Below the pieces are notes generated by a model. It worked only from the letters and a program-made list of their open reading frames with translations, was not told the origin of the DNA and searched no databases. From positions 1-64,000 of the forward strand of contig CAIZLD010000055.1 in the NCBI GenBank assembly GCA_903933715.1: DNA of 64,000 nucleotides, read 5' to 3'. Source of the DNA: an uncultured Spartobacteria bacterium (GTDB taxonomy: Bacteria > Verrucomicrobiota > Verrucomicrobiia > Chthoniobacterales > Chthoniobacteraceae). The translations under genes and the position numbers were made by a program. Every line of letters starts with the position of its first letter. Within the stretch, counting starts at the first letter, position 1. Positions 1,129-27,705 of this stretch are shown here, piece after piece.

Positions 1129-2658
1129 CTAAACCCATAAATTCCGATCCAGCGTCCGGTATTGAATGGCCTCGCTCAGGTGTGTAGCGGTGATATCGGG
1201 GGCGGTTTCAAGGTCGGCAATGGTGCGGGCGACTTTGAGGATGCGATCATGGGCGCGGGCGCTCAAGTTGAGTTCGTGCATGGCCATGCGCAGCAGTTCA
1301 CGGGAATCCTCGTCGAGCGCGCAGTGGGCCTTGAGTGCTTTACTGCTCATCCGGGCGTTACACCGGATTTTCGGAGTCGCTGCAAACCGCTCTTGCTGGA
1401 TCGTTCGTGCGGCAAGGACACGATCCCGGATGGCGGCGGATGATTCAGCGGGCTGAGTCGATGTCAGTTCTTTGAAGTGGACGGCGGGAACTTCGACGTG
1501 GATGTCAATGCGGTCGAGAAGCGGGCCGGAAATCCGCTGGCGATAACGCTGCACCTGCACGGCGGAGCATCTGCATTCCCTCCGTAAATCTCCAAAAAAT
1601 CCACACGGACATGGATTAAGAGCACCTACTAGAACGAATTCTGCTGGATAAGTCACTGATCCTGAGGCTCTTGAAATAGTGACGTTGCCATCCTCCAAAG
1701 GCTGCCTCATGACCTCCAAAGTCGAGCGTTTGAATTCGGGAAGTTCGTCGAGGAATAGCACGCCGTGGTGTGCCAACGTGACTTCGCCGGGGCTGGGGTT
1801 CGTGCCGCCGCCGAGAAGGCCCGCGTCGGAAATGGTGTGGTGGGGAGAACGGAATGGCCTCAGCGAAAGGAACGAACGCTTGGCCGCAAGGAATCCGCAA
1901 ATGCTGTGGATTTTCGTCGTCTCGATGGCTTCGTCAAAAGTCATCGGCGGCATGATGGTAGGGATGCGTTTGGCCAGCATCGACTTCCCGGAACCGGGAG
2001 GGCCAACCATGATGAGATTGTGCCCGCCCGCCACGGCGACTTCCACCGCGCGCTTGGCGGCGTGCTGGCCACGCACGTCGGCGAAATCGACTTCGTAATC
2101 CTGATGTGCCTCGAACAACGGCTCGGCAACGATGGGCGTGAGCGTTTCATTGCCGCGCAAAAACTCGAAGGCTTGTCGTAAGTTGCGCACGCCATAGGTG
2201 GTGATGCCTTCGACAATGGCGGCTTCTTGGGCGTTTCCTTCCGGCACGACGATTGCACGTTTTCCGCACCGCTTGGCTTCGAGGGCTACAGGTAGTACGC
2301 CATTGACTGTACGCACGCCGCCGTCGAGTGCCAGCTCGCCCACGAAGCAATATTGGCCAAAATCGCGCAATTCGATCTGCTCGGAGGCAGCGATCATGGC
2401 GAGCGCGATGGGTAAATCAAAGCTCGGTCCCTCTTTTTTTACGTCAGCGGGAGCAAGGTTAATGGTGGTGCGGCCCTTGGGCCAACGGTAGCCGCTGTTT
2501 GCAACAGCAGTGGTCACGCGGTCCTTGCTTTCTTTAACGGCGGCATCTGGCAGCCCAACGACGACGATTACCGGGTTGCCCGAACTTGCATTCACCTCGA
2601 TTTCGACTTCGTAGGCATCCACGCCATAGACCGCCGCTGAATAGACCTTTGCCAACAT
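1129..2658 (-). CDS. yifB: YifB/ComM-family Mg-chelatase-like AAA+ ATPase (intact copy 1)
   Basis: Full-length 509 aa. Domain order is typical: an N-terminal ribosomal-S5/Lon-protease-like domain (about 1-175), then the Mg-chelatase AAA+ core with Walker A GPPGSGKS at 219-226 and Walker [10 protein letters not shown] at 301-309, then a C-terminal helical domain. Characterised ComM proteins are hexameric helicases promoting branch migration during natural transformation; the role here is inferred. The DNA around codons 348-352 (ALNPCPCG) matches the point where the second copy is split, so this gene contains an unused copy of the same recombination target. It lies 58 bases downstream of a truncated conjugative ATPase, as in copy 2. 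Confidence 0.95.
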
Positions 2659-4928
2659 GGAATTATCTTGGCAAAGATACGGGCCTATGGGAAGAGGGAA
2701 TAGAATTTAGCAAGGTTCACGATGCCCCTTTTGCCTTCTTGCGCATCTTTCCAGTGATCATCTTGAGCGCGGCATCTTCTCGCGCTTTTGATTCCTCAGG
2801 GGAAAGCGCGACAAACGAACGCTTTACCTTGTAACCTCGTCGTATCTCGGGGGCTGTGGCTGCTTCCACGGATGGCTGAATTTCCTCCAGCGCCAAGTTT
2901 TGGAGGAAGGAGATAAAGGCGTCCGGTGAATAGAACCCAACCTGCTTGCTTTGAACCGGCGCAAGACACCCGTTTACCGCTTCCTCCAATCGGGCAAGTC
3001 TTTCCGGCCTTGGGCAAATAACCGCAACTCGGGAGAACCTTGCTTTGAGACATTTCGTGACGTTTCCAACTTCGTAGTCAACGGTGGATGTGACGTTGAT
3101 TTCACAGGCAATTCCGATGTTTCCTCCGACTTTTTCAAGCACAAGATCAATGCTGCCCTGGCCGTCGAGAACCGATTTCTCGATGGTTGCCTTGTAACCA
3201 AGGTTTTCCGCCACGGCTTTGATTCGCTGTTGGATTGATTGGTGTTGTGCGCCTCCGCGTCCAAGGTCTACCGATAACGATGTCTCCGGCTTTGGTTCCG
3301 AACCCACTGTCGGAAGGTGTTTGTTATCCGCATCCTTGCTGGGGAGATTCTGGGTTTTCTCCGGCTGAGATTTTTCAGAAGACGGCTGCTCTGGCAAAGC
3401 CGACTTTGACGCAATGCCTTGGGGTGCTGGTTCCGTCTTTGCCGGGGGAATCGCTTTCGGAGCCGTTTCCTTTTTTTCTGTGGGTGGCGACGTGTAGAGC
3501 GCCTCCCGAAGTTTTGCTTCCACCTCGGTGCGCCGTGCGCCATAGCGGGAGCGTGATGCTTCAATCACGCGTTTCCGCATATCGGTTGCAGTCGCGGCGT
3601 CGGGCTCCTCGGGGAGCGGGATTGTGATGTTGAAATCGTGGTCGCTCCGTTCCACCCGGCATACCGCTTCGCCACCGGCGAGGCTTTGGAGGTCTTCGGC
3701 AGCGAACGAGACGAATCCATCGGCGAGCGTCCGGGCATCGGCGTCTCCCACGCGGAATACCACCCGCGTATAGGGATTGGAAAGCGTTGCGCTTGCGACT
3801 TCGGCATCGCGCTGGAGTTGTCGCAATTCCTGGTGGGCGAGCACTAGCGCCACGCGATACTTGCGTGCGCCGGAGAGCATTTCGCCAAGTGACGGGGTGA
3901 TAAAGTGGTGAAATTCGTCTAGGTAGAGTGAAAAGAAATTTCGATCTTCCTCCCGAAGCCGTTGTCGGGACATGGCTGCTTGTTGGAATTTGGCGACGAG
4001 CAGCGAACCGAGCAGATAGGAATTCTCCCGGCCAATCTCTCCCTGGGGTAACTTGGCGAGGAAGATTTTCCGCTCGTCCATGATGCGGGAGAAATCGAGT
4101 TTGTTCTCGCGCTGTGAGACCATGAAGCGAATTGGCTTCGGCGCAAGAAAGGTGTCGAGTCGGGTGACAACCGGGCCGATTGATTTGTTGCCGGTCAGTT
4201 GAGGGAACGCCTTGCGCCAGTAATAAACAACCTCGGGATCGGATACTCTCTCCAAGAAACTCGCTCGGAATGCCGGGTCGATGAGGAATCGCCGGAGATC
4301 GGCAAGCGTCCCGCCTTGTTCGCTTTCAAGAAAGGCGAGGATTGCGTTTCGCAAAACGGCGTTCATGGAGTCGCCCCAACTTGTTGAAAGCCGCTCGAAG
4401 GCTGAAATGAGGTCAGACGCGAGAACGGTTTTTTCAAGATCAGAATGCGCCGAGAGGATGTTGAACCCGACCGAAAACTCTTCATCTGAGGGATCAAGGA
4501 GCACGACATCGCCGATGCGTTCTTTGGGAACGACGGACAAGATGCGCTCGATCAAATCGCCATGCGGATCAAGGACAGCAAGCCCCTCGCCTCGGTCAAT
4601 GTCCTCACGAATCAGATTGAAGAGGAGTGTCGATTTGCCGGTGCCGGATGCGCCAACGATGTGCATGTGCCGGACGCGCTCTTGGTGCGATAGATACACT
4701 GGGATTTCTCTTCCGGCGTGGCTGTTCCATCCAAGGAAAACGCCCTGGCTGCTCGTCAGTTCCTTCGGCGCGGTTTTCGTTCGGCCAGACTGTGTGCCGA
4801 GTTTTGCGGGTTGAATATCGGGCGACGGTAGGTGAACAAAGCCCGCGAGTTCTTCTGCATTGAGAAGCATCCCCGTTCGGCGGGTCTGGCGAAGAATGAT
4901 GTCCTCTTCGCGTTCGCGGGGCGGATAC
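1129..4928. repeat. Large direct repeat (copy 1) of the yifB-ATPase block
   Basis: This block is repeated in the same orientation at about 23461-26765 (with the yifB 3' half displaced to 17838-18320). The repeat covers all of yifB, the intergenic spacer and the C-terminal 730 or so residues of the ATPase. Proteins are roughly 90% identical by eye, so the copies are paralogous or from related elements rather than a very recent duplication. Similarity stops abruptly after GGATAC near 4928, where the ATPase sequence is replaced by unrelated DNA. Confidence 0.8.
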
Positions 4929-4966
4929 TCCAGATGATGTGCAAGAGAACAAAGCGCCTTCGGCAT
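2717..4966 (-). pseudogene. 5'-truncated conjugative coupling-type ATPase (copy 1)
   Basis: Collinear with the C-terminal part of the 1046-aa ATPase at 24565-27705, starting at its residue 314 or so (YPPRERE). It keeps the P-loop GASGTGKST, the Walker B region LYLDEFHHF and the C-terminal nuclease-like region, but has lost the 313-residue N-terminal domain. The first 13 residues (MPKALCSLAHHLE) come from unrelated DNA. The ATPase core could still be made from this or an internal start, but the natural start and promoter are gone, so I call it a truncated duplicate. Confidence 0.75.
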
Positions 4967-17379: not shown

Positions 17380-17844
17380 TCATTTTCTGGCGGACATTAC
17401 CGCGATAACGCGCGTGCGAAATCGCCCCTTTGGCTCTCGTTCGCCTCGCTCCCACTTCGCGAGCGTGCTCGGATCAATCCCGAGTTCACGGGCAAAATTC
17501 TTCTGCGTGAGCCCGCGTGCTTTCCGGTGTGCGACGAGTTGCTCGGCGACAGTGGCTCCAGTTGGCAGGGGATTGTATCCAAGGAATTCGACCACTTTTG
17601 CCATGTGAATGACGCGCGGAGTAGAGTGTCCCTTTTCCCAATTTACGACCGACATCTGGTCGCAACCGATCCTCTCTGCTACGTCACTCTGCCGAAGGTT
17701 AAGGTCGAGACGGCGTTTGCGGATTGCCTCGCCGATGGTCTTTGGGGTGGACGGATAGCCCTTTGTCTCTGTAAAATATGGCCCGTGGGGAATCCTTGCG
17801 GCTTTTAAAGTCACCTTGCAAAAAGGCAACGCATCCATGTCCAT
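17380..17844 (-). CDS. Tandem XRE-type helix-turn-helix regulator adjoining the recombination site
   Basis: 154 aa if started at 17844; the ATG at 17838 is the more likely original start, because the six bases upstream of it belong to yifB. The ATG lies inside the 7-bp recombination core (17833-17839). Two helix-turn-helix domains are visible: about 36-90 (AIRKRRLDLNLRQSDVAERIG) and 97-140 (LTQKNFARELGIDPSTLAKW). Reconstructing the un-recombined site joins this gene in frame to residue 500 of the serine recombinase. In the present arrangement it instead starts back to back with the yifB 3' half. Probably a regulator of the mobile element. Confidence 0.82.
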   Translation of the reverse strand: MDMDALPFCKVTLKAARIPHGPYFTETKGYPSTPKTIGEAIRKRRLDLNLRQSDVAERIGCDQMSVVNWEKGHSTPRVIHMAKVVEFLGYNPLPTGATVAEQLVAHRKARGLTQKNFARELGIDPSTLAKWERGEREPKGRFRTRVIAVMSARK

Positions 17845-17850
17845 GTGGAT
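17825..17850. other. Left hybrid recombination site (att-type) between the HTH gene and yifB
   Basis: The arm GGCAACGCATCC (17825-17836) belongs to the palindromic parent site; sequence from about 17838 on belongs to yifB codon 350 onward. The shared core ATCCATG spans 17833-17839 and occurs inverted at 23459-23465. Joining this arm to the complement of the right arm gives an inverted repeat, 11 of 12 positions paired, around a central ATGA, as expected for a serine-integrase site. Confidence 0.8.
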
Positions 17851-18320
17851 TTTTTGGGGATATCAAGAGAGAATGCAGATGTTCCGCCGTACAGGTGCAG
17901 CGGTATCGGCAGCGGGTTTCGGGTCCGCTCCTTGACCGCATCGACATCCATGTGGAAGTACCTGCCGTGCCTTTCAAGGAACTCATCGGCAATCATTCCA
18001 GCGAGCCCTCCAGTGCTATTCGTGAGCGGGTGCTCGCCGCCCGCGCCATCCAGCAAAAACGCTTTGCTGATTCCCCTCAGACCCGCTGCAACGCTCGAAT
18101 GACAAGCAAAGCACTAAAAGCTCATTGCACTATCGACGAGGAATCACGAGAACTCCTGCGCATGGCAATGCACGAACTGAATCTAAGTGCCCGTGCCCAT
18201 GACCGCATACTCAAAGTTGCCCGCACCATCTCTGATCTCGAAGCCGCCCCTGATATTACCGCCACGCACCTGAGTGAGGCGATTCAATACCGGACACTGG
18301 ACAGGAATTTGTGGATGTGA
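17838..18320 (+). pseudogene. yifB: 3' half of the second yifB (codons 350-509), displaced and inverted
   Basis: Encodes 160 residues beginning CPCGFFGD, collinear with residues 350-509 of the intact YifB at 1129-2658 and ending TLDRNLWM. The 5' half is on the opposite strand at 23458-24507. N-half 349 plus C-half 160 equals 509 residues exactly, with no bases lost or gained. There is no start codon at the break, so the fragment is not expected to be translated as YifB, though open sequence continues a short way upstream. Confidence 0.9.
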
Positions 18321-18379: not shown

Positions 18380-19558
18380 ATGAAAAACCACCGATCACCT
18401 GCGGGGGAGGGCAGAAAGCGCCCCCAGTTGGATATCGAAATTGAGCGCCTTGAACTCGATGTCCAAAATCCTCGCCTACCAGAGGAGGCCCAAGGGGGAT
18501 CCAACGATGAGGTGCTTCGTCATCTCTATGACCACTTTGATCTGGATGAACTCGCCGATTCGATGACTCAAAACGGATATTTTGATGAAGAGCCTTTGGT
18601 AGCTATTCCAATTGATTTACCCGCCGGTTTAAAGATTTCGGCGAAGTCGCAACATTATATCGATTTTATCAATTCCCCAACCACGCGGTTCACTGTGGTT
18701 GAAGGCAATCGAAGGCTAGCCACGGCGAAATTACTCTTATCGGCAGAGTTGAGGCGGCTTGTTGGTGCTCGCTCATGGAAGGAACCGCACGAAACCGTGG
18801 CAAGCGACCTCGCTCTTCTCCCTGTCATCGTGTATCCGACCCGTCATGAGGTGCTTCCCTATTTAGGCGTGCGACATATCGCGGGCATCAAAAAATGGGA
18901 AAGTTATGCGAGGGCTCGATACATCGCGGAAATGTTGAGAGAAGGCATTTCTGTGGAAGAAATTCAAAAACAAATTGGAGACCGGGCCGGAGCGGTTCGC
19001 CTTCATGCACTCTGCTATCACCTACTGCGGGTAGCGAGAGAGGAATTGGGGATCAATATCAAAGCGGCAACGAATGACTTTTCTCTTTTGCAATTGGCCA
19101 TCGGCCAAGCTCCTGTAAAACATTTCTTGGGCTGGGTCAAACCTGATCCAAAGCGCGAAGGCCAGATCAAGTCTCTATCGCTGGCAGAGGTGGATCTCGA
19201 TGATCCTGTTGGTGAACCATATCAACAGAATCTTGCTGATCTTTTGTCGTTCCTGTATGGAGATGCACGGGGCAAAAGCAAAGTCATTACCGAGTCCCGC
19301 GATATTACCAAGAAGCTTTGCCCTGTATTGGCGAATTCGATGGCTACACAATCCCTGCGCGAGCATAGAAATCTGGAAGCCGCTTACGTGATTTCTGATG
19401 GTGAAGAAACGATGATGAAACGCTCATTGATCCTTGCATCCAGCCACCTTCAAAGCGCGCTGGGTGTTGCTCACCGCAATCGCACACCGGACATTGTAAA
19501 TGAGGCAGAGAAATGTGCTGATACCGCACAGCGCGTTTATAAGGCAGTGACCGAATAA
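18380..19558 (+). CDS. ParB/sulfiredoxin-like nuclease-domain protein
   Basis: 392 aa. An N-terminal ParB-like domain is marked by IERLELDVQNPRLP (about 21-34), DELADSMTQNGYFDEEPLVAI, and VVEGNRRLATAKLLL at 106-120, the typical ParB motif. A helical HTH-like middle (IRYIAEMLREGISVEEIQKQIG region) follows. The C-terminal part is unrecognised. It is the first gene of a plus-strand operon with a PD-(D/E)XK-like gene and a C5 methyltransferase (gaps 4 and 6 bases). ParB-fold proteins are common in plasmid partition and phage defence; here association with a methyltransferase favours a restriction-modification or defence role (inference). Confidence 0.8.
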   Translation: MKNHRSPAGEGRKRPQLDIEIERLELDVQNPRLPEEAQGGSNDEVLRHLYDHFDLDELADSMTQNGYFDEEPLVAIPIDLPAGLKISAKSQHYIDFINSPTTRFTVVEGNRRLATAKLLLSAELRRLVGARSWKEPHETVASDLALLPVIVYPTRHEVLPYLGVRHIAGIKKWESYARARYIAEMLREGISVEEIQKQIGDRAGAVRLHALCYHLLRVAREELGINIKAATNDFSLLQLAIGQAPVKHFLGWVKPDPKREGQIKSLSLAEVDLDDPVGEPYQQNLADLLSFLYGDARGKSKVITESRDITKKLCPVLANSMATQSLREHRNLEAAYVISDGEETMMKRSLILASSHLQSALGVAHRNRTPDIVNEAEKCADTAQRVYKAVTE

Positions 19559-19562
19559 GACG

Positions 19563-20417
19563 ATGTTTGAGTTGCCATATACGACGGACTATACGTTACT
19601 CGCCGACTGGGTTGAACTCCAACTAACAATTGAAGAAAGCCATATGTCGAGATCAGCTTTGTCCCGGCGTATAGAGATGCTCACGGGAGATTTTTCTGAA
19701 CACTTGGCAGGTGAAGTATGGGCAGAGCTTGAGCGGCGCGCCCATGCTTACTCTCCAGAGCGCATACGTGTTGTTGACGATCTAGTTTATCCCCCTCAGT
19801 CCAATGCAATTACGCCAACTTACGTTGCCTGCCTCCTGTTCTCGCTTTATGGTTTTGACCGCGAACATAGGACAGATCCTAAGCTTTTCGAGCGTTTGGT
19901 AGGAGAAGCTTTGGCGCGCTATCTTGGTGGCGAGGTTTTTATTTTTGGCTGGCCAGTAATGTCTGGCCAGTCAGCAGATATCCGGCAACGTATCCGCGAA
20001 TTGGCATCTCGTATCTGCGAGCATTTTATCGAAGAACCTGCATCCACATACAAAGACCGAGGCGTGGATGTTATCGGATGGAGACCATTTCCAGAAAAAG
20101 TCCCGGACAATCATCGCGGCAGTCAAGTTGTTGTTCTAACACAGTGTGCAACCGGAGCGAATTGGGAGGACAAAACCACCGAACTGCCGTTGGAGGCATG
20201 GATGGATTATCTTCACTGGAAATCAAGGCCGATCAAGAGCTTTGCTGTCCCGAAGGTCATCCCTCAAAATCGCTGGCATGATATTTCCAAAGAAGGAGGG
20301 TTGCTTTTCGACAGAATCCGTATTGTGAATCTGATCGCCGATAATTTATCAGACCCGTGCCTATTGACTGAATTGACTGATTGGACAAATGAAGAAACTC
20401 TGGGTGCTCGCGGCTGA
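19563..20417 (+). CDS. Putative PD-(D/E)XK-like nuclease of the ParB-methyltransferase operon
   Basis: 284 aa, no named family recognised. A possible nuclease core is suggested by Glu115 in LVGEALARYLGG, Asp169 in GVDVIGW, then a hydrophobic strand VVVLTQCATG with Gln194 and WEDK with Lys204: an order E...D...Q...K that fits degenerate Mrr-like PD-(D/E)XK enzymes. The Gln-to-Lys spacing is unusually long, so assignment is tentative. Lies 4 bases after the ParB-like gene and 6 before the C5 methyltransferase, the position expected for a cognate restriction enzyme. Confidence 0.65.
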   Translation: MFELPYTTDYTLLADWVELQLTIEESHMSRSALSRRIEMLTGDFSEHLAGEVWAELERRAHAYSPERIRVVDDLVYPPQSNAITPTYVACLLFSLYGFDREHRTDPKLFERLVGEALARYLGGEVFIFGWPVMSGQSADIRQRIRELASRICEHFIEEPASTYKDRGVDVIGWRPFPEKVPDNHRGSQVVVLTQCATGANWEDKTTELPLEAWMDYLHWKSRPIKSFAVPKVIPQNRWHDISKEGGLLFDRIRIVNLIADNLSDPCLLTELTDWTNEETLGARG

Positions 20418-20423
20418 AAACCA

Positions 20424-21716
20424 ATGAGCTTTACATTCGTTGACCTTTTTGCCGGTCTTGGGGGATTCCATATGGCTGCGAGTTCCTTGGGTGGGCGTTG
20501 CGTATTCGCATGCGAGATCAATCCTTGTTTGCAGGAAGTTTATCAAAATAATTTTGGGCTGAAACCGGCTGGTGATATTCGTACCATTGAGCCGACAAAA
20601 GTGCCAGAACACGACCTGCTGTGTGCCGGATTTCCTTGCCAGCCCTTTTCCAAAGCGGGTGACCAGATGGGCTGGGACGATCCTGTTAGAGGTACAGTTT
20701 TTTGGAACATCATCGAAATCATTCGGCTTCGGCGGCCTAAAATGGTTTTACTTGAGAACGTCGCCCACTTTGTGCGACACGACTCGGGAAACACCTATAA
20801 CAAGGTGCGGACGTCATTGGAAAGTTTGGGATATGTGGTGGATTATAAACAATTTTCGCCACATCAATTCGGCGTTCCGCAAATCCGTGAGCGCATCTAC
20901 ATGGTAGGTCACCTTGGCATTGCAGACTATTTCCCTTGGCCCCAACCTTCTCAAGGTTTGGATGTCAGCATCAGAAGTGTTTTAGATGAAAATCCTGTGG
21001 AAGCCACTCCATTGAGCGATCAAGTTGAACAGTGTCTTAGAGTGTGGCAAGAATTTCTGGATATCTTTCCTGAAAACCTGAAACTGCCTTCATTTCCGAT
21101 TTGGAGCATGGAGTTTGGAGCGACCTATCCCTACCGATTTGATTCGCTCTGTCGAGCACCATTGGATGTTCTGCACGCTAGCTGCGGCTCGTTTGGTGCC
21201 AGTTTGAGGGGACTTCCCCGTCCGCAAATATATGCTGCCGTCCCTAGCCATGCGAGAGAGATGCGCAGAGCTTTTCCTCAATGGAAGCAAGATTTCATTC
21301 GGCAAAATCGGGCATTCTATGAAGAGCACCGAGCACGCATCGACCAATGGCTTCCAAAAATACGTCGATTCCCCTCGAGTCTTCAGAAACTGGAATGGAA
21401 TTGCCAAGGGGAAGAACGTAATATTTCCCATTGCGTCATTCAATTTCGAGCCTCAGGAGTGCGCCTCAAACGAGCCACGACAGCTCCTTCCCTAGTCGCC
21501 ATGACGACGACACAAGTGCCCATTATCGGATGGGAAAAGCGATATATGACCGCGCGTGAATGTGCACGTTTACAGTCCATGGACAGTATTACTCATCTGC
21601 CAATAGGAATCGCTGCGTATAAAGCGTTGGGAAATGCCGTAAACGTGACAGTAGTTCGCCAGATTCTTGCTCCTTGGGTAACTAGGTTACGCAAAAAATT
21701 CAGAAACCGGGTGTGA
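20424..21716 (+). CDS. C5-type DNA cytosine methyltransferase
   Basis: 430 aa with the classical motif order: motif I FVDLFAGLGGF (5-15), motif IV GFPCQPFS (69-76; catalytic Cys72), motif VI ENV (111-113), motif VIII QIRER (153-157), and late motifs IX-X (ALGNAVNVTVV near the C-terminus). The 200 or so residues between VIII and IX form the target-recognition region, whose specificity cannot be read from sequence. Transfers methyl from S-adenosylmethionine to cytosine C5. Third gene of the ParB-nuclease-methyltransferase operon. Confidence 0.95.
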   Translation: MSFTFVDLFAGLGGFHMAASSLGGRCVFACEINPCLQEVYQNNFGLKPAGDIRTIEPTKVPEHDLLCAGFPCQPFSKAGDQMGWDDPVRGTVFWNIIEIIRLRRPKMVLLENVAHFVRHDSGNTYNKVRTSLESLGYVVDYKQFSPHQFGVPQIRERIYMVGHLGIADYFPWPQPSQGLDVSIRSVLDENPVEATPLSDQVEQCLRVWQEFLDIFPENLKLPSFPIWSMEFGATYPYRFDSLCRAPLDVLHASCGSFGASLRGLPRPQIYAAVPSHAREMRRAFPQWKQDFIRQNRAFYEEHRARIDQWLPKIRRFPSSLQKLEWNCQGEERNISHCVIQFRASGVRLKRATTAPSLVAMTTTQVPIIGWEKRYMTARECARLQSMDSITHLPIGIAAYKALGNAVNVTVVRQILAPWVTRLRKKFRNRV

Positions 21717-21721
21717 CCCTG

Positions 21722-21910
21722 TTATAATTTTCTAGCTGCATCAAGCAGAACACCCCGAACCCAAGTTGTCTTGCTTTTTCCGTTACGCTTGATCGCTTCC
21801 TCGATTTCTTGAAGCTCTTGGGGCAATAATCGCGTCGAAATGAATTTCGAGAGAGATTTCTCTTTTGGGAGCTTGGGGCGGCCTGTCCGTTTTTTTTGTT
21901 GTTGTGACAC
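21722..21910 (-). CDS. Ribbon-helix-helix (CopG-like) small DNA-binding protein
   Basis: 62 aa. Basic N-terminus with GRPKLPKE (AT-hook-like GRPK), then LSKFISTRLLPQELQEIEEAI followed by a second helix (KTTWVRGVLLDAARKL), the beta-helix-helix pattern of CopG/MetJ-type regulators. Divergent from the serine recombinase, sharing the 50-base region that contains a palindrome over the recombinase promoter, so it is a likely repressor of the recombinase and of itself. Convergent with the methyltransferase, 6 bases apart. Confidence 0.7.
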   Translation of the reverse strand: MSQQQKKRTGRPKLPKEKSLSKFISTRLLPQELQEIEEAIKRNGKSKTTWVRGVLLDAARKL

Positions 21911-21924
21911 GAGAAGTCCTTGCT

Positions 21925-21961
21925 TTTACAGCACTTTCTGTGTCACATATACAGGCTGTAT
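21925..21961 (+). promoter_or_regulatory. Recombinase promoter with overlapping palindromic operator; leaderless start
   Basis: TTTACA (21925-21930), a 17-base spacer and TATACA (21948-21953) form a near-consensus sigma-70 promoter. The predicted transcription start falls on the recombinase ATG at 21960, so the mRNA would be leaderless; no Shine-Dalgarno is present. A perfect palindrome ATACAG-G-CTGTAT (21949-21961) covers the -10 to the start codon and is a good candidate operator for the divergent ribbon-helix-helix protein. Confidence 0.65.
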
Positions 21962-23531
21962 GCAAGCCTCGAAATTCCCGGAAATTTCTCAACAACGCGG
22001 CAAGCCTGTCGGTATCTGGATTCGCGTCTCGACCGAAGACCAAGCCCAGGGGGATAGCCCGCAGCACCACGAGGCGCGGGCGCGTCACTACGCCGCTGCC
22101 AAAGGATGGACAGTAAAGGAAGTTTATGACCTTGCCGGAGTATCCGGCAAATCCGTCATGGAACATCACGAAACGAAGCGGATGCTTGGCGACGTCCAGA
22201 ATGGGCACATTACCGCCCTGGTGTTTTCCAAGCTCGCCCGACTCACCCGCAACGCACGAGAACTCATGGATTTTGCGGACATCTTCCGCGAGCGCAATGC
22301 CGACCTCATTTCGTTGCAGGAAAATCTTGATACAAGCACCCCATCGGGTCGCCTCTTTTTCAATATGGTTTCCATAATGGCGCAATGGGAACGTGAGGAG
22401 ATCACCGACCGCGTAAAGGCGTCGGTGGCTATCCGAGCAAAACTTGGCAAGCCGCTCGGTGGCAAGGCTCCCTATGGCTACGTGTGGCAGGGCAACGATA
22501 TGGTTCCACATTCGGAGGAAGCGCCAGTGAGGAGGCTCATGTATGAACTTTTTGCCGAGCATCGGCGGAAAAAGGCCGTGGCCCGCATTCTCAATGAGCG
22601 TGGATTTCGCACCCGGAATGGCTCCAAGTTCTCCGACACCACCATCACTCGCCTTCTCCAAGACCCGACTGCCAAGGGTGTTCGACGCTCCAACTACACC
22701 CGCAGCAACGGCGAGGGTAAAACATGGGCTCTCAAGCCTGAACATGAGTGGGTTTTCCACGAAGTTCCCGCCATCGTCACTGAGGAGCTTTGGGATCAAT
22801 GCAATGCTCTTCTTGAGGGGCGAAAAGGCACCCGCCAGAAACCCGGCAAACGCCCGGTGCATCTTTTTGCGGGAATCGTGGTCTGCGAATGCGGGCAAAA
22901 AATGTATGTGCCGAGCAGCACGCCGAAATACGTTTGTGCCAAGTGCCGCAACCGGATTCCAATCGTTGACCTTGAGGCGATCTTTTTGGAGGAACTCAAA
23001 AACTATCTTCTTTCTCCCGAACAAATCGGCGAATACCTCGCTGCCGCTCACTCCACCATCGACGAAAAATCGCACCTCCTTGAAACGCTCACGAAGGAGT
23101 TGGAACATGTGAAAGCCGAAGCCGACAGGGTGTTTCGTCTCTACATGGACGAAAAGATCGACGGGGATGGATTCAAACAGCGAAATGATCCGCTCTCTGC
23201 CCGTCGAAAGCAGATCGAAGAGGAAATCCCAAAGGCTGAGGCCGAGGTTTCGCTTTTGAAAATCGACGGCCTATCGAGCGAATATATCCGGGACGAAGCC
23301 GCCGACCTCTACTCCTCATGGCCTTCCATGACCACCGATGAAAAGCGACGCATCGTTGAACTGCTGGCAAAACGCATCACCATCTCGAAAGACGAAATCG
23401 ACATAAGTCTCTGTTACTTACCGTCTTTCAGAGAAACGACAAATAGGCAACACATCCTCATGGATTTAAGGCGGCTACCATTACAAATTCTGACGGGTAA
23501 GTCACTGATCCAGAGGCTCTTGAGATTGTAA
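21960..23531 (+). CDS. Large serine recombinase (site-specific integrase)
   Basis: 523 aa from ATG 21960. Catalytic N-domain with Ser24 in IRVSTEDQ, the recombinase domain ([23 protein letters not shown]), a zinc-ribbon (CECGQKM, CAKCRNR) and a long coiled coil, as in large serine integrases. The last 23 residues (from Met501, ATG 23460) are encoded by antisense yifB sequence beyond the recombination core, so this C-terminus is not native. Before recombination the frame would have continued into the tandem-HTH gene, giving a fused frame of about 652 codons. It is the obvious candidate for the rearrangement that split yifB. Confidence 0.92.
23446..23470. other. Right hybrid recombination site (att-type) between recombinase and yifB
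   Basis: The arm GGCAACACATCC (23446-23457) lies in the 3' end of the recombinase gene; CATGGAT (23459-23465) is the inverted shared core, and yifB codon 349 (antisense) begins at 23463. The arm differs from the left one at a single position. Together they reconstitute the palindromic parent site and an intact yifB. Confidence 0.8.
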
Positions 23532-24507
23532 CCCTACCATCTTCCAGTGGCTGGCGGAGGACTTCGAGGGTGGAGCGTTTGAACTCGGGAAGCTCGTCCA
23601 AAAAGAGAACGCCATGATGGGCAAGCGTTACCTCGCCAGGGGCGGGATTGCTCCCGCCGCCTAATAGCCCGGCATCGGAAATTGTGTGGTGTGGGGATCG
23701 GAAGGGGCGAAGGGATAGGAAGGAACGTTTGCCGCTCAGAAAGCCACAAATGCTGTGAATCTTGGTCGTTTCAATGGCCTCATCGAAGCTCATCGGTGGC
23801 ATGATGGTCGGGATGCGCTTTGCAAGCATCGATTTTCCCGAGCCCGGAGGACCGATCATCAGGAGGTTATGACCTCCGGCGATCGCCACCTCCACGGCTC
23901 GCTTCGCGGCGTGCTGGCCGCGCACATCAGCGAAATCGACTTCGTAATCCTGATAAGCCTCAAACAATGGCTCGGCAACGATAGGCGTAAGCTGTTCATT
24001 GCCGCGCAAAAACTCGAAGGCTTGTCGAAGATTGCGCACGCCGTAGGTAGTGATGCCTTCGACGATGGCTGCTTCCTGGGCGTTCCCTTCTGGCACGACG
24101 ATGGCCTTCTTCCCGCAGCGCTTTGCTTCAATGGCAACGGATAACACGCCGTTGACGGTGCGCACCCCGCCATCGAGCGCCAGTTCGCCGACAAAGCAGT
24201 ATTGGTCAAAGGCAGGCAAATCGATGTGCTCGGAGGCGGCGATCATGGCCAGCGCGATGGGCAAATCGAAGCTCGGCCCCTCCTTTTTCACGTCGGCGGG
24301 GGCAAGATTGATGGTGGTGCGGCCCTTGGGCCAACGATAGCCGCTGTTGGCAACCGCAGTGGTTACCCGGTCCTTGCTTTCTTTTACGGCGGCATCCGGC
24401 AGCCCGACGACGACTATCACCGGATTGCCTGTGCTTGCGTTGACTTCAATTTCGACCTCGAAGGCGTCCACGCCATAAACCGCCGCTGAATAGACCTTTG
24501 CCAACAT
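23458..24507 (-). pseudogene. yifB: 5' half of the second yifB (codons 1-349)
   Basis: Encodes 349 residues, collinear with intact YifB from [20 protein letters not shown] through Walker A GPPGSGKS and Walker [10 protein letters not shown], then stops right after ALNP because the recombination junction supplies a TGA (complement of 23458-23460). It lacks the end of the AAA+ domain and the C-terminal helical domain. A truncated protein could be made, since the start region and upstream ATPase gene are intact. The missing part lies at 17838-18320. Confidence 0.9.
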
Positions 24508-24564: not shown

Positions 24565-27500
24565 TCACGATGCCCCTTTTGCCTTCTTCCGCATCTTTCC
24601 AGTGATCATCTTGAGCGCGGCGTCTTCCCGCGCTTTTGATTCCTCAGGGGAAAGCGCGACAAACGAACGCTTTACCTTGTAGCCTCGTCGTATCTCTGGG
24701 GCTGGGGCTACTTCCTCGGAAGGCTGAATTTCCTCCAGCGCCAAGTTTTGGAGAAAGGAGATAAAGGCATCCGGTGAATAGAATCCAACCTGTTTGCTTT
24801 GAATAGGCGCGAGACATCCGTTTACCGCTTCCTCCAATCGGGCGAGTCTTTCTGACCTTGGGCAAATAACTGCGACTCGGGAGAATCCTGCTTTGAGGCA
24901 TTTCGTGACGTTTCCAACTTCGTAGTCAACGGTGGATGTGACGTTGATCTCGCAGGCAATTCCGCTACCACCCCCGACTTTTTCAAGCACAAGATCAATG
25001 CTGCCCTGGCCCTCGAGAACCGATTTCTCGATGGTTGCCTTGTAACCAAGGTTTTCCGCCACTGCTTTGATACGCTGTTGGATTGCTTGGTGTTGCGCGC
25101 CTCCGCGTCCAAGGTCTCCCGGTAATGATGTCTCCGGCTTCGCTTCCGAACCCGCTTTCGGAAGATGCTTGTTATCCGCATCCTTGCTGGGGATGTTCTG
25201 GGTTTTCTCCGGCTCAGAAGGCGACTGGTCGGGTAAAGCCGACTTTGAAGCGGTGTCCAAGGGTGATGCTTCTGCTCTTGCCGGAGCCGCTGTTTTCGGA
25301 GCCGTTTCCTTTTTCTCTGTAGGCGGTGACGTGTAAAGCGCCTCTCGAAGTTTTGTCTCAATATCGGTGCGCTTTGCACCGTAGCGGGAGCGTGATGCTT
25401 CAATCACGCGCTGTCGCGTATCCGCCGCAGTCGCTGTGTCCTGTTCCTCGGGGAGCGGGATTGTGATGTTGAAATCGTGGTCGCTCCGCTCCACCCGGCA
25501 CACTGCTTCGCCGATACCGAGGCTTTGGAGGTCTTCGGGAGCGAATGAGGCGAAGCCATCGGCGAGTGTCCGGGCATCGGCGTCTCCCACGCGAAATACC
25601 ACCCGCGTGTAGGGATTGGAAAGTGTTGCGCTTGCGACTTCGGCGTCGCGTTGAAGTTGACGCAATTCCTGATGAGCGAGGACGAGCGCCACGCGATACT
25701 TGCGTGCGCCGGAAAGCATCTCGGCAAGTGACGGGGTGATGAAATGGTGAAATTCGTCGAGGTAGAGTGAAAAGAAATTTCGATCTTCTTCCCGAAGCCG
25801 TTGTCGAGACATCGCGGCTTGTTGGAATTTGGCGACAAGAAGGGAGCCGAGGAGATAGGAATTCTCTCGGCCAATCTCTCCCTGGGGCAACTTGGCGAGG
25901 AAGATTTTCCGTTCGTCCATGATGCGGGAAAAATCGAGCTTGTTCTCGCGCTGCGAGACCATGAAGCGGATTGGCTTCGGCGCGAGAAAGGTATCGAGTC
26001 GCGTAACAACCGGGCCGATTGATTTGTTGCCGGTCAGTTGAGGGAACGCCTTGCGCCAGTAATAGACAACTTCGGGATCGGAAACGCTCTCAAGGAAGCT
26101 CGCGCGGAATGCTGGGTCAATGAGGAATCGGCGTAGGTCGGCAAGCGTTCCGCCTTGTTCGCTTTCAAGAAAGGCAAGGATTGCGTTTCGCAAAACGGCG
26201 TTCATGGAGTCGCCCCAGCTTGTTGAAAGCCGCTCGAAGACGGAGATCAGGTCGGACGCGAGAACGGTTTTTTCAAGATCGGAGTGTGCCGAGAGGATGT
26301 TGAAGCCGACGGAAAATTCTTCGTCTGAGGGATCGAGGAGCACAACGTCCCCAATGCGCTCATTGGGAATTACGGACAAAATGCGCTCGATTAAATCGCC
26401 GTGCGGATCAAGGACGGCAAGCCCCTCACCTCGTTCGATGTCATTGCAAATCAGATTGAAGAGGAGTGTCGATTTTCCGGTGCCGGATGCTCCAACAATG
26501 TGCATGTGCCGGACGCGCTCTTGGTGTGATAGATAGACTGGTGTTTCTCTTCCGGCATGGATGTTCCATCCAAGAAAGACGCCTTGGCTGTTCGTGAGTT
26601 CCTTCGGCGCACTTTTCGTCCGGCCTGATTGAGTGCCAAGTTTCGCGGGTTGGATTTCGGGAGACGGCAGGTGAACGAATCCCGCGAGTTCTTCTGCGTT
26701 GAGCAGCATCCCGGTTCGCCGGGTCTGGCGAAGAATGATGTCTTCCTCCCGTTCGCGGGGAGGATACCCTTCGCTGCCGAGCAAGCCGAGTTCGTTTCCA
26801 TCTGGCCGGGAAAACGCTTGGAAGGGCGATGCCATTTCTGAAACGAGATTCCATGCACGTTCTTCGCTTGCTGAACATGCGACCACCCGAACACTTGCCG
26901 CATACAGGGGTTGCGAGATTTTCTTCCGCGCGTGTGCAACAAGATCGGGACGGTTCACAAAGAATGATCCGCCCTCGCCGTCGGTCACGGCGCGAAGGGC
27001 ACTTTCGCTCCATGCGTGACTCACGGGTTGGAAAATCACTTGGTAAAGTGCAAGCTCTCCTTCGTGTAGGTCGGCGGCGACCCCAATCAGGCCGGTAAAC
27101 ACGTCATGCTTGGGTAAGCCAAGGGGGAGCATGAATTCCCGCTCAAGGGCAAATTCAGTGACCGCGATATGCGGCTCGGATTCCTGCCATGCCAAAAGCA
27201 GGGTATCGTGCTGTTCTACGCATTCGACACCAGGGAAGTGGGCGGAAACCTGACGGGCAACCGTGGCGGCGTCTTCGGGGTTGCATGCAAACTGGATGGC
27301 GATGCGGGAATGATCCGCCAACACTTCAAATGAAATCGGGGATTGGCACGCGCCGAGCGCAATCATACACGCCTGCATGTCCGCTGCGCTGAAGTGCCCA
27401 CGCTTCGGAAGTGAGAGCTTCACTTCGACAACCGCACTGCGCTCGAACGTCTCCGGTTCGGCTTGTTCCTCTTCTTCCTCGGCGGCTGGCGACTCCGCTG

Positions 27501-27705
27501 CGTGGCTGCTGAAAAACGACAGGAAGCGGCTTCCGATGCTCTGTCGCTGCCCCTCATCAACAGCATTCCCTTGTGGTAGAAAATGGCCGGGGAAGGGATA
27601 GAACGGCGGCTCTGGCGATACCGGCATGTCGAAGAGAAGCCCGCCACGACCGCGCATTTCCCAGCGGTAGAACTGCTCGGTCAACTGCTCGTCGATCTGT
27701 CCCAT
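24565..27705 (-). CDS. Conjugative coupling-type ATPase (VirD4/TraD-like) with C-terminal nuclease-like domain
   Basis: 1046 aa, full-length version of the gene truncated at 2717-4966. An N-terminal domain of 310 residues is followed by the motor: Walker A GASGTGKST (405-413), AVLDPHGDLIERI, and Walker B FFSLYLDEFHHF. A Pro/Lys/Glu-rich linker leads to a C-terminal region (about 890-980) with GSIDLVLEKV and IACEINVTSTVDYEVGN, resembling the D...E core of PD-(D/E)XK-type domains (tentative). Probably pumps DNA in conjugative transfer or a related DNA translocation step. Encoded 58 bases upstream of yifB and 4 bases after a membrane protein gene. Confidence 0.85.
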   Translation of the reverse strand: MGQIDEQLTEQFYRWEMRGRGGLLFDMPVSPEPPFYPFPGHFLPQGNAVDEGQRQSIGSRFLSFFSSHAAESPAAEEEEEQAEPETFERSAVVEVKLSLPKRGHFSAADMQACMIALGACQSPISFEVLADHSRIAIQFACNPEDAATVARQVSAHFPGVECVEQHDTLLLAWQESEPHIAVTEFALEREFMLPLGLPKHDVFTGLIGVAADLHEGELALYQVIFQPVSHAWSESALRAVTDGEGGSFFVNRPDLVAHARKKISQPLYAASVRVVACSASEERAWNLVSEMASPFQAFSRPDGNELGLLGSEGYPPREREEDIILRQTRRTGMLLNAEELAGFVHLPSPEIQPAKLGTQSGRTKSAPKELTNSQGVFLGWNIHAGRETPVYLSHQERVRHMHIVGASGTGKSTLLFNLICNDIERGEGLAVLDPHGDLIERILSVIPNERIGDVVLLDPSDEEFSVGFNILSAHSDLEKTVLASDLISVFERLSTSWGDSMNAVLRNAILAFLESEQGGTLADLRRFLIDPAFRASFLESVSDPEVVYYWRKAFPQLTGNKSIGPVVTRLDTFLAPKPIRFMVSQRENKLDFSRIMDERKIFLAKLPQGEIGRENSYLLGSLLVAKFQQAAMSRQRLREEDRNFFSLYLDEFHHFITPSLAEMLSGARKYRVALVLAHQELRQLQRDAEVASATLSNPYTRVVFRVGDADARTLADGFASFAPEDLQSLGIGEAVCRVERSDHDFNITIPLPEEQDTATAADTRQRVIEASRSRYGAKRTDIETKLREALYTSPPTEKKETAPKTAAPARAEASPLDTASKSALPDQSPSEPEKTQNIPSKDADNKHLPKAGSEAKPETSLPGDLGRGGAQHQAIQQRIKAVAENLGYKATIEKSVLEGQGSIDLVLEKVGGGSGIACEINVTSTVDYEVGNVTKCLKAGFSRVAVICPRSERLARLEEAVNGCLAPIQSKQVGFYSPDAFISFLQNLALEEIQPSEEVAPAPEIRRGYKVKRSFVALSPEESKAREDAALKMITGKMRKKAKGAS

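Follow-up and report, generated by a model that had tools for sequence, protein, structure and literature searches.

Why would a bacterial genome keep a ParB-like gene, a gene of no annotated family and a cytosine methyltransferase gene packed end to end inside a recombining island? We asked this of a 64,000-nucleotide stretch of DNA (the window; positions 1 to 64,000 of contig CAIZLD010000055.1, assembly GCA_903933715.1, forward strand) from an uncultured Spartobacteria bacterium, in which a sequence-only reading had picked out the three genes as a candidate restriction or defence system. We label them A (ParB-like), B (predicted endonuclease) and M (C5 methyltransferase), and all three together the trio. 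On the modelling and comparative evidence below, the trio is likely to be a restriction-modification (RM) system with A and B as its restriction half, and the predicted nuclease fold of B and the conserved linkage of the genes both support the candidacy first proposed. A check of open reading frames (ORFs) returned the genes as that reading had placed them, all on the + strand, with 4 bases between A and B and 6 bases between B and M:

18380–19558, + strand: gene A, 392 aa; ParB/KorB-like, with a ParB N-domain, KorB-like DNA-binding helices and C-terminal helices
19563–20417, + strand: gene B, 284 aa; predicted endonuclease, winged helix plus PD-(D/E)XK domain
20424–21716, + strand: gene M, 430 aa; C5 cytosine DNA methyltransferase

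A and B form a conserved pair with exchangeable methyltransferases

When A was run against 84,980 species genomes, 383 relatives were returned, and the best 80 were taken as loci. B was found directly behind A in 74 of these 80 species loci, usually overlapping it or a few bases away, and one of the six loci without B ends 53 bases past A. Loci found via B likewise had A directly upstream, except for one B fragment in L013. The 80 A loci represented at least 17 named phyla, and relatives were also present on plasmids. A scan of viral contigs with B alone gave no matches; B matches in G125 and G185 were set aside as weak, and no A-like neighbour was found in the former.

M carries the full motif set of a C5 methyltransferase (DLFAGLGG, PCQPFS, ENV, QIRER and GNAV), as had been claimed, and matches PF00145 at 1.2e-62; the motifs indicate that it is probably an active enzyme. 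It is 63–66% identical to the methyltransferases of the A–B loci L018 and L023. A DNA methyltransferase was the immediate neighbour of 66 of 79 distinct A–B pairs and lay within three genes in 71 of the 79, while the rate four or more genes away was 5 in 337 gene slots (about 1.5%). Because the models for neighbouring methyltransferases were seeded from the A–B neighbours themselves, the independent Pfam counts matter here: among 50 genes downstream of A–B there were 19 N6_N4_Mtase, 16 C5 and 4 D12 matches, and among 54 upstream genes 14 D12 and 10 C5. The adjacent pair thus recurs in a wide range of phyla and almost always next to a DNA methyltransferase, which excludes chance co-occurrence of A and B; the trio is conserved as a unit.

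Methyltransferase class changed 12 times along the B tree, compared with 37.2 times in shuffles, indicating that the trio has been inherited together while the modification enzyme was swapped several times. The group on this tree that contains the window's B (12 rows, strong support) was associated with C5 enzymes throughout, to which M is up to 66% identical; in other loci the same A–B pair would serve with C5, N4/N6 or D12 methyltransferases.

These neighbourhoods also bear on the idea that the trio maintains a mobile element, through ParB partition and an addiction RM system, and is not concerned with defence. The window copy does lie beside a serine recombinase and comM attachment-like sites, and the plasmid-borne relatives fit such a role. 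Yet A–B is accompanied by a methyltransferase and not by a replicon, and among the pairs examined none was noticed to have a ParA gene alongside, no search having been aimed at ParA; we regard maintenance as very improbable.

Other modification and restriction genes were seen close to some pairs. A–B adjoins GHKL, Z1 and DUF4420 genes in L016, L017 and L077, and Z1 and DUF4420 genes in L012, where GHKL was not seen; in L017 the pair, the GHKL–Z1–DUF4420 genes and a C5 methyltransferase gene belong to a single gene run. In L009 (6877–8924) the pair and a Dnd phosphorothioation-like cluster converge; no other pair was seen with this modification. Such positions, beside GHKL–Z1–DUF4420 genes or a Dnd-like cluster, suggest that A–B may act there as a second restriction arm.

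B is a predicted Mrr-related nuclease

The AlphaFold2 (AF2) model of B, from an alignment of 72 sequences, had a mean predicted local distance difference test (pLDDT) score of 93.0 and a predicted template modelling (pTM) score of 0.92. It comprised two halves, a winged helix (approximately residues 5–85) and an alpha/beta domain of PD-(D/E)XK type (approximately residues 87–275). Aligned with VIA, the second half matched the nuclease domain of MspJI (Z 7.1 over 132 residues, 4.2 Å) and further those of BsmI, FokI, Nt.BspD6I, SdaI and AspBHI. ROQ domains, winged-helix regulators and Card1/Can2 also appeared in the Protein Data Bank (PDB) fold lists for B; apart from sharing the winged helix and the general nuclease fold, they were not taken to be related. 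When the second half was compared with the Mrr_cat profile (hhalign, one comparison), it matched with 86% probability and an E-value of 4.7e-6, scoring 41.5 versus at most 19.3 in controls (30 column-shuffled and one reversed). D169 of B fell on the Mrr aspartate in this alignment, and Q194-C-A on the Mrr QxK.

An E...D...QCATG...WxxK pattern had been described in B, and all of its elements are present (E110, D169, Q194-C-A-T-G, W201 and K204); the proposal of Asp169 and Lys204 as catalytic residues is consistent with the predicted active site:

19890–19892, + strand: B E110, predicted active-site glutamate in the first helix; conserved as E in 76 of 77 homologues
20067–20069, + strand: B D169, predicted metal-binding aspartate; invariant in 77 homologues
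20142–20174, + strand: B Q194-C-A...K204, predicted QxK-type site with the lysine shifted; Q in 69 of 77 homologues

In secondary structure and conserved residues, B shows the core fold and the E, D, Q/E-x-K pattern of Mrr-like PD-(D/E)XK nucleases. Our case for a nuclease is built on the recurrence of several sequence-unrelated restriction nucleases on one domain, together with the Mrr profile match, and B is accordingly described here as a predicted fusion of a winged helix and an Mrr-related PD-(D/E)XK endonuclease, which agrees with the nuclease first suspected. The protein has remained outside curated families: the window's B had no match in Pfam, NCBIfam or PADLOC, none of the 77 homologues matched Pfam or PADLOC (models for Mrr and other restriction endonucleases included), and no solved structure was matched by sequence. 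B is matched by two PHROG families, neither with a known function.

A is a ParB/KorB-like partner

The ParB fold claimed for A was confirmed by its AF2 model (pLDDT 93.4), which matched KorB (8qa9; Z 11.1 over 206 residues), Noc (Z 9.8) and ParB (Z 9.1) in VIA alignments, and the KorB DNA-binding domain (1r71) with Z 5.1 over 112 residues. The matches spanned the ParB N-domain and the KorB-like DNA-binding helices, leaving over a helical C-terminus. A has the fold of the ParB/KorB/Noc superfamily, its box-II P motif and the DNA-binding helices that follow; V106, E108-G-N-R-R-L113, H166 and W173 were invariant in 84 homologues. The motif lies at:

18701–18715, + strand: A EGNRR, residues 108–112; ParB box-II/P motif, invariant in 84 homologues

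NTP binding by other ParB-fold proteins needs an arginine of the equivalent motif (PMC12704722), and by its motif A may bind a nucleotide. No significant match to A was found in Pfam or NCBIfam; in PADLOC it matched PDC-M38A (4.7e-14) and, over the N-terminal part, PD-Lambda-5_A (3.4e-12).

Since the best structural match of A is a repressor, KorB, we considered whether B and M alone form a Type II pair and A mainly autoregulates the operon in the manner of KorB or DndB, standing outside the cutting machine. Controllers are common in RM systems, and DndB has been described as a regulator (PMC10853773). Against such a role, A is better conserved among homologues than B and lies immediately ahead of B in nearly all loci, whatever the methyltransferase, and PD-Lambda-5_A, a relative, carries this domain joined to a C-terminal part of its own. 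A mainly regulatory A therefore seems unlikely to us.

The trio is carried by phages and in E. coli

Checks with the profiles of both A and B confirmed the pair, accompanied by a convergent C5 methyltransferase, in Pseudomonas phage vB_PaeM-D14A and three P2-like phages of Escherichia coli (vB_EcoM-12474III, WPhi and a P2 isolate). The WPhi genes are gp98 (A), gp96 (B) and mth (M). The coliphage trio lies between the portal gene Q and phage gene A, an interval that is a hotspot rich in anti-phage systems in P2-like phages (Rousset et al., PMC9122126), and A–B is probably carried by these phages as defence cargo.

Among 5,426 complete E. coli genomes, 139 (2.6%) had the trio, 103 of the WPhi type and 36 of a related type, and A–B and M were always found together. 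An intact copy is present in the WPhi prophage of E. coli W (NC_017664.1, 4335184–4338354), where the genes are annotated as a ParB N-terminal domain protein, a hypothetical protein and a cytosine methyltransferase; the genome paper labels this strain 'restriction minus' (PMC3032704). Its presence there makes the system directly testable.

Four insertion sequences were seen at E. coli trios, three inside B, one upstream of A and none in M, these being small numbers drawn from part of the E. coli genomes. In three E. coli strains (L152, L154 and L155) an IS5-like element lies within gene B while A and M are intact. Insertions in B but not in M are the pattern expected of a costly nuclease and a protecting methylase, small as the numbers are.

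Weighing a restriction-modification system

We hypothesize that M methylates a cytosine within a target sequence of host DNA, as its motifs suggest, and that A, as a nucleotide-binding protein of ParB/KorB type, locates DNA and keeps hold of it, probably in an NTP-controlled way. B, with its winged helix and Mrr-like nuclease domain, would then cut where the mark of M is missing, A and B acting jointly as the restriction component, perhaps in a complex that locates its site. We favour this RM reading because of the fold and residues of B, the motif of A, the A–B linkage, the methyltransferase neighbours, the phage hotspot and the insertions in B, and also because the homologous two-gene system PD-Lambda-5 is phage-protective (PMC9519451).

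Several points weigh against it. A Foldseek search of the PDB with B returned nothing at E ≤ 0.001, the best match being MspJI at 1.2e-3, and VIA Z-scores of up to 7.1, as obtained for the nuclease half, fall in a range that is common among unrelated models. The lysine of the predicted site was at position 204 only in 60 of the 77 homologues, at 196 only in 14, at both in one and at neither in two; residue 196 is the position of the Mrr lysine, and in most B homologues the lysine is eight residues further on. The 204/196 shift maps as one change on the B tree, so we counted it as support once and not fifteen times, and for the same reason did not use a Fisher P value of 2e-12 for the exchange as evidence. 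Finally, MspJI and Mrr, the nearest nucleases by structure and by sequence, cut modified rather than unmodified DNA.

That last point leads to the main rival, in which A–B is a modification-sensing arm that detects a methyl group or another mark, either foreign or that of M itself used as a switch, and then cuts, like Mrr and MspJI or the phosphorothioate-sensing SspE. The closest folds and sequences to B do belong to modification-dependent enzymes (MspJI, AspBHI and Mrr), the L009 pair stands beside the Dnd-like cluster, and SspE is activated by the modification (PMC11662687). DndI, however, which also combines a ParB fold with a nuclease, attacks unmodified DNA (PMC11662687). Most A–B pairs moreover keep a methyltransferase of their own, of a class that follows the B tree, and cutting their own mark would be self-toxic; we therefore consider modification sensing the less likely account, and an improbable one.

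Within the RM reading, a more specific and tentative possibility, which we would not at present expect to be correct, is that A is an NTP-gated clamp of ParB/KorB type that loads at or near the recognition site, slides and licenses the Mrr-like nuclease, with the methyl mark blocking loading or triggering release. If true, restriction would be exerted through a ParB clamp and not through a helicase or direct site recognition by the nuclease, in a widespread form swappable across C5, N4/N6 and D12 enzymes. For the RM reading as a whole, DndI is the best worked-out analogue: its ParB-fold NTPase domain is coupled to a nuclease, with the self mark promoting hydrolysis and release (PMC11662687).

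Relation to known systems

Among the closest described systems is PD-Lambda-5, two genes of prophage origin that give broad phage protection in E. coli (Vassallo et al. 2022, PMC9519451). It likewise has a DNA methyltransferase, and its ParB-like protein is homologous to A over approximately 225 N-terminal residues (hhalign 99.7%, E 1.7e-26). PD-Lambda-5_A, however, is mostly 430–500 aa long, with a different C-terminus that resembles neither B nor Mrr, and its methyltransferase is of D12 type with no separate nuclease gene, whereas the window has B and a C5 enzyme. A matched the N-terminal part only of the PD-Lambda-5_A models, so that neither a full-length PD-Lambda-5_A nor a D12-type PD-Lambda-5_B is present. 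We also considered PD-Lambda-5_A as a fusion of A and B and rejected this, hhalign giving no match to B or Mrr. By sequence, then, the trio is a cousin of PD-Lambda-5 and not the same system. The two stand side by side in L054, L055, L083, L085 and L086, and in L054, L055 and L086 A–B and the PD-Lambda-5 A and B genes make up joint four-gene clusters.

In GmrSD, SspE and DndI (DUF262/ParB-fold plus HNH), as we propose here, a ParB-fold NTPase domain steers a nuclease, in their case a modification-sensing one (PMC11662687). These are single polypeptides or an S/D pair with HNH, whereas in the trio a KorB-like A and a nuclease of PD-(D/E)XK type are encoded separately; no DUF262 or HNH match was found in the window's A or B, nor in the 77 B homologues. 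B resembles the Mrr/MspJI-family nucleases in the topology of its catalytic domain and in its D...QxK pattern, and differs in its lack of a Pfam match, its mostly displaced lysine, its unvarying ParB-like partner and, in most cases, an accompanying methyltransferase. As in Type II RM systems, a methyltransferase gene with complete catalytic motifs adjoins a gene with a predicted nuclease fold; the trio adds a third, ParB-like subunit, and the same A–B takes C5, N4/N6 or D12 methyltransferases.

The MORC/GHKL-ATPase RM operons with Z1 and DUF4420 (Iyer et al. 2008, PMC2292703) share with some A–B loci the genes noted above, none of which is next to the window trio, and PMC2292703 makes no mention of ParB. 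For the PADLOC candidate PDC-M38A, A residues 102–361 align with the N-terminal half of the 715-aa model, covering positions 87–334 only and not the full model. PDC-M38A as an A–B fusion was rejected, its C-terminal half matching many other genomic ORFs, as an ATPase domain would, and not B. The ParB–DNA methylase–HEPN operons (Anantharaman et al. 2013, PMC3710099) also join a ParB-like gene and a DNA methylase, with a HEPN RNase as partner rather than a PD-(D/E)XK nuclease.

The sequence-only reading knew of no named system with this exact trio, and we found none either, although A is homologous to PD-Lambda-5_A and the ParB–methylase–HEPN operons were noted in 2013. No published name was found in the papers searched, supplements, REBASE and the newest defence catalogues excepted, where the trio may be listed. 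It appears to be without a name in Pfam, PADLOC 2.0 or those papers, and the B nuclease family without annotation. A restriction-type three-gene system that reaches 17 or more named phyla, and has relatives in 2.6% of the complete E. coli genomes, would apparently be unnamed and, if our reading is true, ParB-fold proteins, known from DNA segregation, have been reused for the control of DNA cutting.

The trio lies in an inverted segment that splits comM

The description of the surroundings as a recombining island proved apt, as the trio and a serine recombinase lie inside a segment whose inversion splits comM:

17833–17839, + strand: left ATCCATG core, with the C-terminal part of comM after it
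17840–18320, + strand: comM C-terminal part (YifB/ChlI-like); PF13335 2.7e-32, PF01078 1.7e-15
21840–23531, + strand: large serine recombinase, CcrC/XisF-like; PF00239 1.1e-31, PF07508 5.2e-20
23459–23465, − strand: right ATCCATG core, with the N-terminal part of comM before it
23466–24507, − strand: comM N-terminal part; PF01078 1.4e-73, PF13541 3.6e-43

comM starts at 24507 and is cut at the ATCCATG core, with its C-terminal part lying in opposite orientation at the other end of the segment. Rejoining the halves restored a full 509-aa frame, and the other junction became an attP-like palindrome, AAAAAGGCAACGCATCC-ATG-AGGATGTGTTGCCTATTT, with 15 of 17 arm positions matching. Together, the rejoined frame and the palindrome indicate that the segment 17833–23465, with the trio and the serine recombinase, is inverted relative to comM. 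The inversion was probably made by that serine recombinase, acting on the attP-like site and the comM site; the enzyme matches NCBIfam CcrC at 1.5e-39, under the model cut-off, and its reading frame crosses the right-hand core site.

At the upstream end of the trio lies a two-domain XRE regulator (17380–17844, − strand), with weak PADLOC similarity to RM control proteins, which may control the trio in the present orientation. Two copies of comM occur in the window (1129–2658 and 23466–24507, both − strand), 93% identical over 348 residues. Each adjoins a copy of a large ATPase (2717–4966 and 24565–27705), and there is a further copy on contig C45; the duplicated comM and large ATPase are a segmental duplication.

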